From Sideroxydans sp. (GTDB taxonomy: Bacteria; Pseudomonadota; Gammaproteobacteria; Burkholderiales; Gallionellaceae): DNA of 44,710 bases. The stretch is from NCBI GenBank assembly GCA_027310725.1, contig DAIDAG010000025.1, forward strand, positions 1 through 44,710, in the 5' to 3' direction. Both the position numbers and the translations under genes were made by a program. Position 1 is the first letter of the stretch; the number at the start of each line of letters is the position of its first letter. A model generated the notes under the pieces. The model was given only the letters and a program-made list of their open reading frames with translations, was not told the origin of the DNA and did no database searches. This document shows positions 15,285 to 19,741 of this stretch, in pieces.

Positions 15285-16244
15285 ATGAAAAGAGAATCGC
15301 TGTTGGTGCTGTCTGTAGCGCTTGCCTTGGGCGCCTGTTCTACCACGCAGAAAGCGATGGAAAAGCAGCAAAGTGCCGCGCCGATCGTGGATGCGGTCGC
15401 CGGCCCCAGCGGCAAATCCGCAAGCACACCACCGACAGCGGGTGGCGGTTATCTGTCCGGCGATGGTCCCGGCACCGATGCACCAAACCTGGATAGCATC
15501 CCCGATGCGGTACCCAAGGCCGAGCCCCTGCATCGCTACGCCAACCGTCCCTACACCGCGCTGGGCAAAACCTACACACCGTTGCAGGCTACGGGCAACT
15601 ACAAGGAACGCGGCATCGCTTCCTGGTACGGCAAGAAGTTCAACGGACAACGCACCTCCATCGGCGAGACATATAACATGTACGAGATGACCGCCGCGCA
15701 CCCGACGCTGCCCATACCCAGCTATGCGCGTGTCACCAATGTTGCGAATGGCAAGTCCGTCATCGTGCGCATCAACGATCGCGGCCCGTTCCTGCACGAG
15801 CGCATCATGGATCTTTCCTATGCCGCCGCCTACAAGCTCGGTTATGTCAACAACGGCAGCGCCGAAGTCGAAGTCGAGAGCATCGCGGTCGGTGCTGGCG
15901 CACCGGTTACAGGTACGGTCGAAACGGCTGCCCTCAACGTCGAGCCGATCGCGGTAACCCCCATCGCGCCGGCTGCGCCCAGCATACCGGTAGATACGGT
16001 CGGCAGTTCGAAAGGAAAAATTTTCCTGCAACTCGGCGCATTCAAATCGGCGCAGGGTGCGGAAAGTTTCCTTGCCAAAATGAATGCAGAACTGGGCGAC
16101 AGCGGCAAGGAACTGAAGCTGTATGAAAAGAACGGACTGACCCGCGTGCACCTCGGCCCCTATGCGAACGAGAGCGAAGCACATGATGCCGCAAGCAAGC
16201 TTGCTTCGAGGCTGGGCTTCAAACCTTTCGTGAGCCTGCACTGA
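15285..16244 (+). CDS. rlpA: Septal ring lytic transglycosylase lipoprotein RlpA
   Basis: Outer-membrane lipoprotein that cleaves denuded glycan strands at septa. About 319 residues: lipoprotein signal peptide with lipobox ALGAC (lipidated Cys18), a Pro/Gly-rich linker, a double-psi beta-barrel domain (about 105-195, GIASWYGKKFNGQRTSIGE and VRINDRGPF) and a C-terminal SPOR domain (about 243-319) starting IFLQLGAFKSAQGAE. Two adjacent ATGs (15282, 15285) are possible; 15285 is better spaced from GAGGGGG. In the operon with rodA, and its stop overlaps the DUF1304 start (TGATG). Confidence 0.94.
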   Translation: MKRESLLVLSVALALGACSTTQKAMEKQQSAAPIVDAVAGPSGKSASTPPTAGGGYLSGDGPGTDAPNLDSIPDAVPKAEPLHRYANRPYTALGKTYTPLQATGNYKERGIASWYGKKFNGQRTSIGETYNMYEMTAAHPTLPIPSYARVTNVANGKSVIVRINDRGPFLHERIMDLSYAAAYKLGYVNNGSAEVEVESIAVGAGAPVTGTVETAALNVEPIAVTPIAPAAPSIPVDTVGSSKGKIFLQLGAFKSAQGAESFLAKMNAELGDSGKELKLYEKNGLTRVHLGPYANESEAHDAASKLASRLGFKPFVSLH

Positions 16245-16603
16245 TGCACGCCGCCGCCAACATCGTTGTCGGCATCGTCGCCCTCATCCACGTGTACATT
16301 CTTGTGCTCGAGATGTTCCTGTGGGAAAGACCAACCGGCCTGAAGACTTTCGACATGGACGAGAACTTCGCCGCCGCGACCCGGATACTCGCGGCGAACC
16401 AGGGGCTGTATAACGGTTTTCTGGCGGCGGGGTTGTTCTGGGGGTTGTTTGCCGGGGACATCCACGTGCAGAGGTTCTTTCTCGGGTGCGTGGTGACGGC
16501 GGGGGTGTATGGGGCGATGACGGCGAATGCCAGGATATTGTGGATACAGGCGGCGCCGGCGGTGGTGGGGTTGGTGTTGTTGGGGTTTGTGCCGGCCTAT
16601 TGA
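16244..16603 (+). CDS. DUF1304 family small membrane protein
   Basis: 119-residue protein with four hydrophobic helices (about 4-24, 50-68, 74-92, 98-117), recognisable as DUF1304 from VALIHVYILVLEMFLWERP near the N-terminus and NQGLYNGFLAAGL. The family is widespread in bacteria and without a known function. The ATG overlaps the rlpA stop by one base, so it is the last gene of the mre/rod/rlp operon here, though that linkage may be incidental. The 3' part is very G-rich, unlike the genes before it. Confidence 0.8.
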   Translation: MHAAANIVVGIVALIHVYILVLEMFLWERPTGLKTFDMDENFAAATRILAANQGLYNGFLAAGLFWGLFAGDIHVQRFFLGCVVTAGVYGAMTANARILWIQAAPAVVGLVLLGFVPAY

Positions 16604-16639
16604 GGATTTGAGGTTGTTCGTGCCACGCGTTACATAGGA

Positions 16640-16798
16640 CCGTTCGTCCTGAGCCTGTCGAAGGATGGGCGAAGCCCACAAATTTCAGCCGTTCGCCCTG
16701 AGCCTGTCGAAGGGTGAATGTCTTCAGCCAAACCAGCACCGTCGGGGGTAGCCCGACAGCTAAAGCCGTTCGTGGTGAGCTTGTCGAACCATGAATGG
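16640..16798 (+). repeat. Three tandem copies of a REP-like CCGTTCGTCCTGAGC repeat
   Basis: Copies begin at 16640, 16689 and 16766. Each has the form CCGTTCG..CTGAGC.TGTCGAA, with the third more diverged. A fourth copy lies inverted at about 18330-18368. This repeat type is widespread between genes in many proteobacterial genomes. These copies form the outer end of the left arm of the 16640-18370 element. Confidence 0.75.
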
Positions 16799-16829
16799 CT
16801 GGGTGCACAGTTTGCCGGGGGTTGCCCGG

Positions 16830-17058
16830 CGGCTAGTCACTTTCTTTTGCTTCGCCAAAAAGAAAGTAACCAAAGAAAAGGCGACCCCGGTTTGCCGCCC
16901 TTCGGGTTCCCTCGATATTTCGCCAACAAGCGGGGCTGCGCAACTCGCCCTGGCGGGGCACACAAACCGTGCCCCACTGCGGAGCTCAAACAGTGCTCGC
17001 CTAAACCTCCGCTTGTTGGTGAAATATCGAGGCGGCGCACAGGGGAGGGAAAGTCAAA
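16830..17058 (+). repeat. Left arm of a long inverted-repeat element, with a 123-bp core
   Basis: The outer part (16833-16909) begins CTAGTCACTTTCTTTTGC and matches the reverse complement of 18207-18283 almost base for base. The 123-bp core (16910-17032) is bounded by a 24-bp inverted repeat (CCTCGATATTTCGCCAAC... and its complement) and contains the hairpin GGGGCAC-N7-GTGCCCC (16955-16975). Small open frames across this stretch are repeat-derived and not credible genes. Confidence 0.85.
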
Positions 17059-17103
17059 ACCTAAAACCAGCGCGTGGGCACTTCGTGCCCGCCAAATGAA
17101 CCA

Positions 17104-17931
17104 TCAAAACGGTAGTGCCTGCAACCCTTTTGACTTTACTGAAAACGCAGAGTACGGAATGATTTTCCCAGACTCCTGGCGAATGAATATTTTTTCTTCT
17201 AGCGGATGAATATCAACCAAAGTTCCTATTACTTGCCATTCTTGATTAGCAATTGAATCGTTAATTTCACCTTCTGAACCTTCAGCAAAAATCACTTTAT
17301 CACCTTCTATCCGGAAGTAACGCGCAGTAGACACTCCCTTAATCTCTACTGATTCAATTCGACGTTCCAGCGCCCCAATTGCAGAAAGAAGTAATTGAGT
17401 GTCAGGTGAAACCTTTTGACCCGCAGGAACTTCCGCTGTCTTAATTCCTGCAAGCTGAATCACTGAATTCAACCCATTTTCGCCAACCTTGGCAGTTTCG
17501 GTAATTGCGACTGAAATTTTCGAAACATCTTTCTGGACTGAATCAATCCTGAGGCTGTCGTCATACTCTGTGTAACGTAGGCCTTGAATATCGAACACCT
17601 TTTCTGTTCGTCTATCTTTAACCAACGTGACAGGTTTGTTAAATGCATGTCGAATTCCTAGCTCATACATAACGTTTGGATTTCGCGCGCTGAAATCGCA
17701 GATAACCATTTCGGATTCAACAATCTTTTGAATTATCCCAACGACAATGTAGTCCGTTTTTACGGCATCGTCAGCTCTAACTGGGGAATAGCCAGCGGCA
17801 ACAATGGCTGGCTTAAGAAGATGCTCATAGACCCTTGCAAAGTGCCCAGGTTCGTATCCGTGAACATCAGAAATAGGCATTATCACAAAACAGATTGGCG
17901 TCGTCTTTTCGGCATTTTCTTGAGTTGTCAT
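17104..17931 (-). CDS. Unknown protein with an N-terminal TIR/nucleoside-deoxyribosyltransferase-like domain
   Basis: 275-residue soluble protein. Residues about 12-125 show the pattern FVIMPI, then VYEHLLKPAIVAAGY, then R-A-D-D, I..KIVESEMVICDFSARNPNVMYELGIRHAF, a Rossmann-like arrangement seen in nucleoside 2-deoxyribosyltransferase and TIR-like proteins. The NPNVMYELG block with its Glu is the part usually linked to nucleotide or NAD binding. The C-terminal ~75 residues are not recognised. The gene is clearly more AT-rich than its neighbours and is enclosed by long inverted repeats, which points to horizontal acquisition. Such domains occur as effectors in antiphage systems, so a defence role is possible but unproven. 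ATG 17931; ribosome-binding site weak. Confidence 0.6.
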   Translation of the reverse strand: MTTQENAEKTTPICFVIMPISDVHGYEPGHFARVYEHLLKPAIVAAGYSPVRADDAVKTDYIVVGIIQKIVESEMVICDFSARNPNVMYELGIRHAFNKPVTLVKDRRTEKVFDIQGLRYTEYDDSLRIDSVQKDVSKISVAITETAKVGENGLNSVIQLAGIKTAEVPAGQKVSPDTQLLLSAIGALERRIESVEIKGVSTARYFRIEGDKVIFAEGSEGEINDSIANQEWQVIGTLVDIHPLEEKIFIRQESGKIIPYSAFSVKSKGLQALPF

Positions 17932-18039
17932 TATGTATTCCAGCTCTTAGGAAGAATTTCAAGTCTTAAATGTACCGGAGTCAAGCTGTTTTGACCATGC
18001 GTCCCACACCAAGTTAGAGTTGGACAACGTGCCCACTCT

Positions 18040-18368
18040 GGGTTTGATTCTGGATTTTCGCTTTTTCTTCCCCTGAGCGCCGCCTCGATATTTCGCCAAC
18101 AAGCGGGGCTGCGCAACTCGCCCTGGCGGGGCACACAAACCGTGCCCCACTGCGGAGCTCAAACAGTGCTCGCCTAAACCTCCGCTTGTTGGCGAAATAT
18201 CGAGGGAACCCGAAGGGCGGCAAACCGGGGGCGCCTTTTCTTTGGTTACTTTCTTTTTGGCGAAGCAAAAGAAAGTGACTAGCTGTCGGGCTACCCCCGA
18301 CGGGGTTGGTTTGTAATTTGAAAATCAGCGGGCTTCGCCCATCCTTCGACAGGCTCAGGACGAACGGT
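18040..18368 (-). repeat. Right arm of the long inverted-repeat element
   Basis: Inverted counterpart of the arm at 16640-17058. The outer part 18207-18283 is the reverse complement of 16833-16909 with about one mismatch; further out, GCTGTCGGGCTACCCCCGAC (18283-18302) and the REP-like repeat (18330-18368) also mirror the left arm. The 123-bp core (18083-18205) is in the same orientation as the left core, with one base difference. The inner flank 18040-18082 is a diverged mirror of 17033-17070. Confidence 0.85.
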
Positions 18369-18400
18369 CATTAGGTGCTCATCACAAACGAAGAGCAGAG

Positions 18401-19741
18401 CTAAGCAACCCGTAACACCAACCCCTTCAAATACGCCCCCTCCGGAAAACTCAACAACACCGGATGATCCGCCGCCGCATGCAGCTTCTTCACGATCTGC
18501 GCATCCACCCCCGCATCGAGCGCCGCCCCCGCAATGATCTTCTGAAACAGATCATCACTGATGCCACCCGAACAGGAGTAAGTGAACAGCAACCCACCCG
18601 GCCGCAACAATTTAAAGCCCAGCAGGTTGATGTCCTTGTAGGCGCGCGAGGCTTTCTCGGCAAAAGCAGCGGTGGGTGCGAATTTGGGCGGATCAAGCAC
18701 GATGAGGTCGAACTTGCGGTTCTGGTCGCGCAGTTTGCGCATGGCTTCGAACACGTCGGCGCATTGCCATTCGGTGCGCGACGGATCGAATCCGTTTAAC
18801 TCAACATTGGCTTGCGCCAGTTGTAGCGCTTCCTGCGACGAGTCGATGGAAAGCACCGACTTCGCATCGCCGCGCAATGCATAGAGCGAAAAGCCACCGG
18901 TGTAGCAGAAGCAGTTGAGCACGTCGCAATCGGCAGACAGCGTGCCGGTCAGGGCGCGGTTGTCGCGCTGGTCCAGGTAGAAGCCGGTCTTCTGCCCGGC
19001 CGCCACATCCACCGCGAAGCGGATGCCGTGCTCAACTACTTCCACATGTTTCGGCAAGGCCCCGCGCAGCACGCCGCTGCGCACGGGCAGGCCTTCCAGC
19101 TCGCGTCCGTCGGAATCCGAGCGTTCGTAGATGCAAACGGGCGAGCACAATTCCTGCAGGATGTCGGCCAGTGTGTCGCGCCAATGTTCCGGCCCTGCGC
19201 TGCCTAGCTGCATCACCAGTACGTCGCCATACTTGTCCACGATGAGGCCGGGCAAGCCGTCCGATTCGCCGTGGACTAGGCGCATGCCGTTGCTGTCGCG
19301 ACCAAGGCCGAGTGCGCGCCGTGCTTTCAGAGCGCTGGCGATGCGGTTGCGGAAGAATTCCTTGTCGATGACATCGGCTTCGCGCCACGACCATACGCGT
19401 GCGGTGATCTGCGATTCGGCGTTGTATGCGGCCCATGCCAGAAACTTCCCCGAGGCATCGCGTACCGCTACGGTATCGCCGCTGGCAGGCGCACCGTCGA
19501 TGCACTCGACGGCGCCGGAGAATATCCACGGGTGGCGGCGCATCAGCGATTTGTCGCGGTCCGCCTTGAGGATGAGGCAGGGTCGCCCCATCGGGTTGCC
19601 CGTACGCGGCGGAGCGGAGGTATTCTTCGGCGCATGCGCTTCTGCCTTCTGTTTGTCGCGCTTCACACGGTTGCGAAAATCGATGCCGCCTTGCGATGGG
19701 CGGTGCGGGGTCGAATGTGATTTGGATTTTGGAGTGTTCAT
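18401..19741 (-). CDS. rlmI: Class I SAM-dependent 23S rRNA methyltransferase, RlmI-like
   Basis: Predicted rRNA cytosine-5 methyltransferase. 446 residues from ATG 19741, which overlaps the xerC stop (ATGA). Domains: a basic, low-complexity N-terminal tail (1-50), a PUA-like RNA-binding domain beginning GRPCLILKADRDKSLMRRHPWIFSG, and a Rossmann methyltransferase domain with the SAM loop VLNCFCYTGGFSLYAL, DLIVLDPPKFAP and the CSGGI catalytic cysteine region. RlmI is about 396 residues, so the true start may be ATG 19591 at MGRPCL and the tail may be untranslated. Last gene of the dapF-xerC operon. Confidence 0.85.
   Translation of the reverse strand: MNTPKSKSHSTPHRPSQGGIDFRNRVKRDKQKAEAHAPKNTSAPPRTGNPMGRPCLILKADRDKSLMRRHPWIFSGAVECIDGAPASGDTVAVRDASGKFLAWAAYNAESQITARVWSWREADVIDKEFFRNRIASALKARRALGLGRDSNGMRLVHGESDGLPGLIVDKYGDVLVMQLGSAGPEHWRDTLADILQELCSPVCIYERSDSDGRELEGLPVRSGVLRGALPKHVEVVEHGIRFAVDVAAGQKTGFYLDQRDNRALTGTLSADCDVLNCFCYTGGFSLYALRGDAKSVLSIDSSQEALQLAQANVELNGFDPSRTEWQCADVFEAMRKLRDQNRKFDLIVLDPPKFAPTAAFAEKASRAYKDINLLGFKLLRPGGLLFTYSCSGGISDDLFQKIIAGAALDAGVDAQIVKKLHAAADHPVLLSFPEGAYLKGLVLRVA

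Follow-up and report, generated by a model that had tools for sequence, protein, structure and literature searches.

Units made of two structured arms that face each other at shared chromosomal sites, in short form or loaded with cargo that usually differs between genomes, were found in Gallionellaceae and their relatives, among them iron-oxidising bacteria akin to Sideroxydans, and in one genome (G024) two such units have exchanged flanks. We read these units as docking loci whose cargo would be exchanged mainly by homologous recombination; we infer this mechanism from sequence comparison and rate its chances as about even. The gain and replacement of single accessory genes without integrases or transposases has so far been largely inferred. 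The arm family is a system that can be counted: its arms are defined, its units come short or loaded, its sites recur between genomes and its cargos are many. It occurs in genomes of cultivable relatives and makes arm-driven gene exchange testable.

The armed unit between DUF1304 and rlmI

The initial annotation of the window (the whole 44.7-kb stretch of DNA analysed here) had described one AT-rich gene enclosed by facing, block-built arms in the gap between DUF1304 and rlmI, and both arms and the gene were confirmed at this place by alignment and ORF analysis (Table 1; the two gene names are those of that annotation, and both proteins served as queries). Read from the outside inward, each arm consists of a REP, the 17-bp hairpin H1, the CTAGTCACTTTC block, a 123-bp core and an inner tail. 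The description of these blocks as near-exact inverted copies holds for the REP, the GTCGGGGGTAGCCCGAC block, the CTAGTCACTTTC block and the tail (86–97% identity) and fails for the core, the two copies of which are direct repeats with 99% identity; one copy looks flipped because the core ends in 24-nt inverted repeats. An extra hairpin-REP module is present in the left arm and absent from the right. Three arm sub-motifs, searched with up to 3 mismatches, occur in 2, 4 and 3 copies in the window, all of them inside the unit, and shuffled sequences gave 0. The cargo ORF has a G+C content of 0.43, as against 0.60 in the flanks. An Rfam scan of the unit returned nothing above chance.

Table 1. 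Features of the armed unit and its flanking genes (window positions)
Feature	Position	Strand	Remarks
DUF1304 gene	16244-16603	+	left flank of unit
Left outer REPs, two copies	16638-16716	+	16638-16685 matches right end
H1 copy a (GTCGGGGGTAGCCCGAC)	16741-16757	+	part of extra left module 16741-16832
CTAAAG-REP module	between H1 copies a and b, within 16741-16832	+	left arm
H1 copy b (GCCGGGGGTTGCCCGGC)	16814-16830	+	left arm
Left terminal block	16833-16906	+	CTAG foot, hairpin CACTTTCTTTT...AAAAAGAAAGT, purine tract AAAGAAAAGG, TTCG hairpin
Left 123-bp core	16910-17032	+	24-nt terminal inverted repeats, strong hairpin
Left inner tail	17033-17062	+	CGGCGCACAGGGGAGGGAAAGTCAAAACC
Inner hairpin, cargo 3' end	17070-17093	+	GTGGGCACTTCGTGCCC type; limits by eye
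Cargo gene	17104-17931	-	275 aa, TIR / nucleoside 2-deoxyribosyltransferase-like region
5' box (TCAAAACAGCTTGACTCCGGTACATT)	17969-17994	-	reads into gene; common to 22 other loaded units
Inner hairpin, cargo 5' end	18017-18038	-	degenerate in window; limits by eye
Right inner tail	18056-18082	-	
Right 123-bp core	18083-18205	+	flipped (direct repeat of left copy, 99%)
Right terminal block	18209-18282	-	
Right hairpin H1 (GTCGGGGGTAGCCCGAC)	18285-18301	-	
Right outer REP	18322-18369	-	
rlmI gene	from 18401	-	right flank of unit
Inverted match, REP	16638-16685 / 18322-18369		48 nt, 94%
Inverted match, GTCGGGGGTAGCCCGAC block	16729-16762 / 18280-18313		34 nt, 94%
Inverted match, CTAGTCACTTTC block	16816-16933 / 18182-18299		118 nt, 97%
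Inverted match, inner tail	17009-17059 / 18056-18106		51 nt, 86%

Across the family, a typical arm is mostly about 220–260 bp long and comprises two hairpin types, a purine tract, the core and the tail. In 110 aligned arms, the pairing of H1 and of its loop with the CTAG or CAAG foot is kept in 99.4% of alignment cells, the variable foot pair being A-T in 69 arms, T-A in 36, G-C in 2 and other in 3. The covariation score for H1 and foot lies above all 500 shuffles and the slid controls, in arms that are mutually related; changes on both sides are seen in only two of nine pairs, a count that 365 of the 500 shuffles also reach. The left arm of the window unit combines a TTG loop with a CTA foot, which is one of 2 T-T mismatches among 108 parsed arms and looks as if the arm were a recombinant. 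Formal pair counts were limited to H1 and the foot because the MAFFT alignment loses the register of the second-hairpin tracts, and the three-tract relation was taken from motif parsing of 102 of the 110 arms. The purine tract after the second hairpin corresponds to the purine strand of that hairpin in mirror order (e.g., 16838-16885), a relation kept over 7–8 bases in six tract classes, to which 84 of the 102 arms belong. Mirror tracts that change with the hairpin are compatible with the geometry of an intramolecular DNA triplex, which in related sequences is no proof of one. The window core folds strongly as DNA (z -8.4); the outer blocks alone fold weakly (z -0.6 and -2.0). The two arms of a short unit have a mean identity of 0.72, as against 0.80 in loaded units; judged by eye, the cores of the two arms in short units are of different types. 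The right-arm core is flipped in two units of the source bin, that of the window (contig C72) and that of contig C63 (locus L021, 4661-4783), and is inverted in the unit of contig C45 and in other listed right arms with the same core; this variation suggests that the core may invert between its 24-nt repeats.

Distribution of the arms and their cargo

The arm was matched in 38 of 61 genomes searched and in 30 of the 34 of the genus, the source genome included. At least 118 stretches in named genomes carry an exact 30-base arm pattern, which was absent from the viral contigs searched. Among the matches listed are Sideroxydans, Sideroxyarcus, Gallionella, Methylotenera, Novimethylophilus, Sulfuricellaceae, one Glaciimonas and one Burkholderiales bin, along with many bins titled only Nitrosomonadales, Gammaproteobacteria or Proteobacteria. 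Three complete genomes contain 10, 15 and 13 arm-motif hits (reversed-pattern control: 0, 0 and 1), and 32 of these 38 lie in facing pairs, leaving 6 solo arms. Being few and mostly paired in complete genomes, the arms are not a common dispersed repeat; the initial annotation's phrase "repeats common in the chromosome" suits the outer REPs in kind and is inapplicable to the arms themselves. Nor did the search of the source genome and its relatives reveal arms scattered genome-wide with no tendency to flank genes.

A profile of the arm end gave 261 hits in 162 fetched loci. Among neighbouring hits less than 3 kb apart, 91 pairs face each other (2 being overlap artefacts), none are back to back and 8 are on the same strand, 6 of the latter less than 50 bp apart. 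When the 2 overlapping hits, gaps below 150 bp and units fetched twice are left out, 81 non-redundant facing units from Gallionellaceae and relatives remain, of which 41 are short, with gaps of 226–524 bp that leave no room for a gene, and 40 are long, with gaps of 596–1720 bp. The interiors of the long units have a mean G+C content of 0.454 versus 0.589 in the flanks, and are lower than the flanks in 39 of 40. An ORF listing that gave at most two per unit found one ORF of at least 60 aa in 36 long units and two in the other 4. L222, still counted among the 40, probably has no real cargo because it is G+C-rich and its ORF is 72 aa long. Inner hairpins bracket the cargo in many loaded units. 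In most short units parsed at both ends the spacer measures 91–110 bp (231 bp in one) and contains two hairpins, and may have a function of its own. Similar two-hairpin spacers of ~95 bp (e.g., L054, L057, L060) are also seen at sites where no loaded unit was observed.

The window cargo has weak similarity to a TIR effector in PADLOC (E = 2.7e-6, residues 33–145) and, below the cut-off, to the nucleoside 2-deoxyribosyltransferase family PF05014 in Pfam (E = 0.017). A search of solved structures with this protein gave no match, and an AlphaFold model of it alone was discarded as unusable (pLDDT 40.5). Its relatives occur in 37 other genomes among 399 sampled in the order, the best being 48% identical. 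These 37 include no further genome of the genus, the share of the genus in that sample not being listed. None of 29 fetched homologues has the arms, and one has a 48-nt inverted repeat. A Pfam scan of the main ORF of 30 of the 40 long units, that of the window included, found HEPN (RiboL-PSP), AbiU2, DUF3800, CoiA, RelA/SpoT, KilA-N, DUF4145, HNH, RES, DUF4116, DUF2441 and BRCT, with weak or no matches for the rest and no transposase or integrase family. When 20 ORFs besides that of the window were compared with PADLOC, 5 matched at 0.001 (PDC-S33, BstA, PD-T7-4 and two of restriction type). The units are a shortcut to uncharacterised genes, some of them with HEPN, AbiU2, RelA/SpoT, BstA-like, RES, HNH or restriction-type matches.

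A box similar to ATAGTCAAAACAATTCGACTCCGGTACATTG is associated with the cargo in 23 of the 40 long units, in a scan that allowed up to 5 mismatches over 22 positions. It lies on the strand of the cargo gene and reads into the 5' end of the gene in all 23 cases, and is one-sided in 22; the remaining unit has a second, opposite copy. A genome scan at no more than 3 mismatches found it in 23 of the 34 genus genomes, with 0 for the reversed control. Of the 30 box loci fetched, 18 lie no more than about 1.5 kb from an arm and the other 12 have no arm so near, so the box is not confined to the units.

Shared sites and the exchange of cargo

By flank comparison, 60 of the 81 units fall into nine shared-flank groups, each drawn from different genomes or bins according to the record list. 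The shared sites include polA, mutY, aroC, pstB and DUF1304-rlmI; the automatic grouping merges some of them, namely mutY with another site, and polA with rlmI because of the rearrangement in G024 described below. By direct links, seven loaded units at the mutY site carry six types of cargo. Five loaded units at the polA site, which also has two short ones, carry five types, and six at a third shared site carry five types. The aroC site presents ten directly linked units from ten genomes, all short. Pairs of units with the same cargo (L066/L258, L073/L089, L171/L211) are all at shared sites, and among the 40 loaded units a single cargo family was found at two different sites (L056/L090), its members being distant (53%). 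The strand of the cargo relative to the flanks is mixed at the mutY site, and a free choice of orientation is not general, since all six loaded units at the third site have the cargo on the same strand; the orientation of flanking genes by longest ORF was left unused as too noisy at such G+C. The proposal that the unit is an exchangeable cassette lacking its own transposase is well supported, since relatives have the same kind of arms at shared sites with another gene, or no gene, between them. Movement to new sites, which the same proposal allowed, was not upheld: most units are at sites shared between genomes, and no clean insertion with a target duplication was demonstrated.

Of the 22 other genomes of the genus in which rlmI was matched, 20 were viewed at the DUF1304-rlmI site itself. 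A unit is present in G024 and a short, truncated pair in G029. In G001 a single arm is present (L138, G001:C21:5640-9200); between it and rlmI lie two ORFs of 223 and 195 aa, the first MT-A70 methyltransferase-like by eye, and there is no second arm. G019 and G003 retain a hairpin-REP remnant only, G004 has a REP only, and the other 14 of the 20 have no arm; several arm-less sites contain two small genes, rhodanese-like by eye. The gap therefore presents arm-less, one-armed and empty paired forms among relatives, and the window gene was not found there without arms in any relative viewed. The source bin (3.03 Mb, 80 contigs, 65% complete) carries the arm also on contigs C45 and C63 and at the end of C48. 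C45 has a second rlmI, 96% identical to that of the window over 200 aa; after it come the same arms, which here enclose another gene, of 222 aa, and the contig ends in the second arm. We take this cargo to be DUF2971-like; in Pfam it has a weak DUF7392 hit only. C45 may derive from a second strain in the bin. The two rlmI segments perhaps represent two strains or species, and both C45 and C48 break inside arms. On C63 a short pair adjoins pstB; an AT-rich-looking ORF of 201 aa (L021, 4943-5548) is located just outside this short unit beside a glmM-like gene (by eye), and is not enclosed by arms.

In the reading that we prefer, two structured arms face each other at a fixed intergenic site, with a spacer of ~95 bp or an AT-rich accessory gene, often with the shared 5' box, between them. 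Incoming DNA bearing another armed gene would pair with the resident arms, and RecA-type homologous recombination would swap the inside of the unit; the cargo could enter in either orientation because the arms are inverted, and recombination could also take place between arms at different places. The genes carried would be accessory ones, several of a defence-like kind, which selection would maintain and which would often be replaced. DNA uptake is a putative capability of these bacteria, since ComEC was found in 32 of the 34 genus genomes (and in the E. coli control), though not in the source genome at 65% completeness. Two units of G024 (loci L064 and L069) have exchanged flanks: one lies between polA and rlmI, the other between DUF1304 and the left flank of the polA site, which in other genomes lies opposite polA. 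An inversion with its ends in the two units would give this arrangement; three of the four arms of these units are 97–98% identical to each other. Arms of loaded units have a mean identity of 0.81 at the same site in different genomes and 0.74 between other sites, in a comparison where a few records of one genome are double-labelled and other-site pairs were sampled one in four. An identity of 0.81 is marginal for RecA pairing and counts against recombination, as do the arm-less homologues of the window cargo and the near absence of cargo families found at two sites. More tentatively, the family may represent a dispersed, integrase-free form of gene capture, in which the arms would be a portable docking interface for the loading, loss and replacement of one gene at a time at a few fixed sites across a bacterial family. 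A protein of the host, or one derived from a transposase, would possibly recognise the arms as folded single strands (pseudoknot, mirror-repeat triplex).

The main rival to recombination is transposase-aided movement, in which a Y1 (HUH) tyrosine transposase of the RAYT/TIRYT type would move units or cargo in trans via the folded arms or the 5' box. We regard this as unlikely overall, albeit with several observations in its favor: the arms are hairpins with a covarying loop-foot pairing, Y1_Tnp was found in 20 of the 34 genus genomes, and the box stands upstream of genes without nearby arms at the 12 loci noted above. In G005, a Y1_Tnp gene has inverted flanks of 34 bp that contain a TACCTT variant of the box and agree with it within 3 mismatches of 26. 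The box may accordingly be a promoter or a transposase end, both candidate roles, and its likeness to a transposase-linked terminal repeat points to a process other than recombination. The G005 gene (L324 1123-2172, G005:C34) encodes 242 aa and has a tandem partial duplication of its 5' end. Against such movement, the complete genome of G004 has four paired units and no Y1_Tnp match, and none was found in the incomplete source genome either. The box reads inward and is nearly always one-sided in the units, where it ends in TACATT or CACATT, whereas at the transposase gene it reads outward and ends in TACCTT. The concentration of units at shared sites and the scarcity of solo arms likewise disfavor transposition. 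No target duplication was found at the rlmI site, where the flanks are too diverged and REP-rich to decide.

Passive accretion, whereby the arms would be old, terminator-like mosaic repeats, genes would gather where insertion is tolerated, and the arms would be idle in exchange, appears improbable. By eye, REPs and other hairpin repeats do surround the arms, and three of the nine shared-flank groups consist of short units only, as accretion would allow; the strictly facing geometry (91:0), the finding that in 27 of the 40 long units the tail motif bounds the interior on either side, the shared 5' box and the rearrangement between two units in G024 argue against it. An invertible switch, in which the inverted arms would flip the cargo or the core and so turn expression on or off, could draw on the long inverted arms and on the right-arm core, which is flipped in the units of C72 and C63 and not in that of C45. 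It is nevertheless very improbable, as the cargo itself differs between species, beyond its orientation, and flipping would not separate the 5' box from the gene because the box lies inside the arms with it. An integron origin was examined because intI is present: an integrase above the cut-off was found in 15 of the 34 genus genomes. Integron gene cassettes are single AT-rich ORFs, varied and often of unknown function, with hairpin recombination sites, and the cargo resembles them in being single and AT-rich. It is nonetheless scarcely credible that the cargos are cassettes of integrons, or that IntI serves the units as dispersed sites of an integron-like kind. The units form no array, each occupying its own chromosomal site; the complete genomes of G004 and G024 contain units and no IntI above the cut-off; and a crude attC scan, which caught 2 of 4 control copies in L332, found an attC-like site in 1 of the 40 long units. 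G029 has a true chromosomal integron that coexists with units (intI at 388278-389222, four attC-type repeats beside it in L332 at 17905-18999 and more in L333), and its attC repeats are unlike the arms. Comparison of unit cargo with three stretches around integrons gave no match except one unit's own copy.

Comparison with known systems

The exchange of cargo between arms by recombination, as proposed here, appears closest in kind to the neisserial minimal mobile elements and to mobile insertion cassettes. For the minimal mobile elements of Neisseria, recombination has been proposed as the sole route of entry (Saunders and Snyder 2002, in PMC3898611). They likewise place different whole-gene cassettes between the same two conserved genes, there among strains and here among species (PMC3898611). 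The units differ in having portable, structured, inverted arms and an empty armed form; the passages of PMC3898611 on these elements describe no dedicated arms. An armed unit would resemble in its working a minimal mobile element that has been given portable arms, and is not filed under that name because recombination as the sole mechanism is not established. The neisserial NIME arrays, as presented in the same source, are also mosaics of repeats between genes, for which a role in promoting recombination with incoming DNA has been suggested; the arms are ordered and facing, unlike those variable arrays (PMC3898611).

Mobile insertion cassettes such as MIC231 and mic-qnrD share with the units a passenger between inverted ends and the lack of an internal transposase (PMC3913671). 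According to the account in PMC3913671, MIC231 has a parent transposase, and mic-qnrD, with ends of 24 bp, shows a target duplication of 2 bp. The arms of the units, in contrast, measure about 250 bp and have no known parent or demonstrated duplication; no parent IS was found for them, the comparison being with the Y1_Tnp locus via the box. REP, BIME and REPIN systems resemble the arms as intergenic hairpin repeats (PMC3733652, PMC6006769), and RAYT-TIRYT genes, as outlined in these sources, are Y1 genes with terminal inverted repeats, comparable to the flanks of the G005 gene. REPs are described as short (20–40 bp) and abundant (PMC3733652), whereas the arms are long, few, paired and often gene-enclosing. 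With respect to a REPIN/RAYT system, the arm has a hairpin (H1) with a conserved foot, and the cognate Y1 transposase is absent from the complete, unit-bearing genome of G004. Four exact arm strings had no match in the literature text searched, and the family is undescribed in the literature found on related repeats and cassettes, as judged mostly by titles and abstracts. New here are arms built of several hairpins in which loop and foot pair and covary, the existence of an empty form, and a box common to the 5' side of 23 of the 40 cargos that resembles the terminal repeat of a tyrosine-transposase gene.
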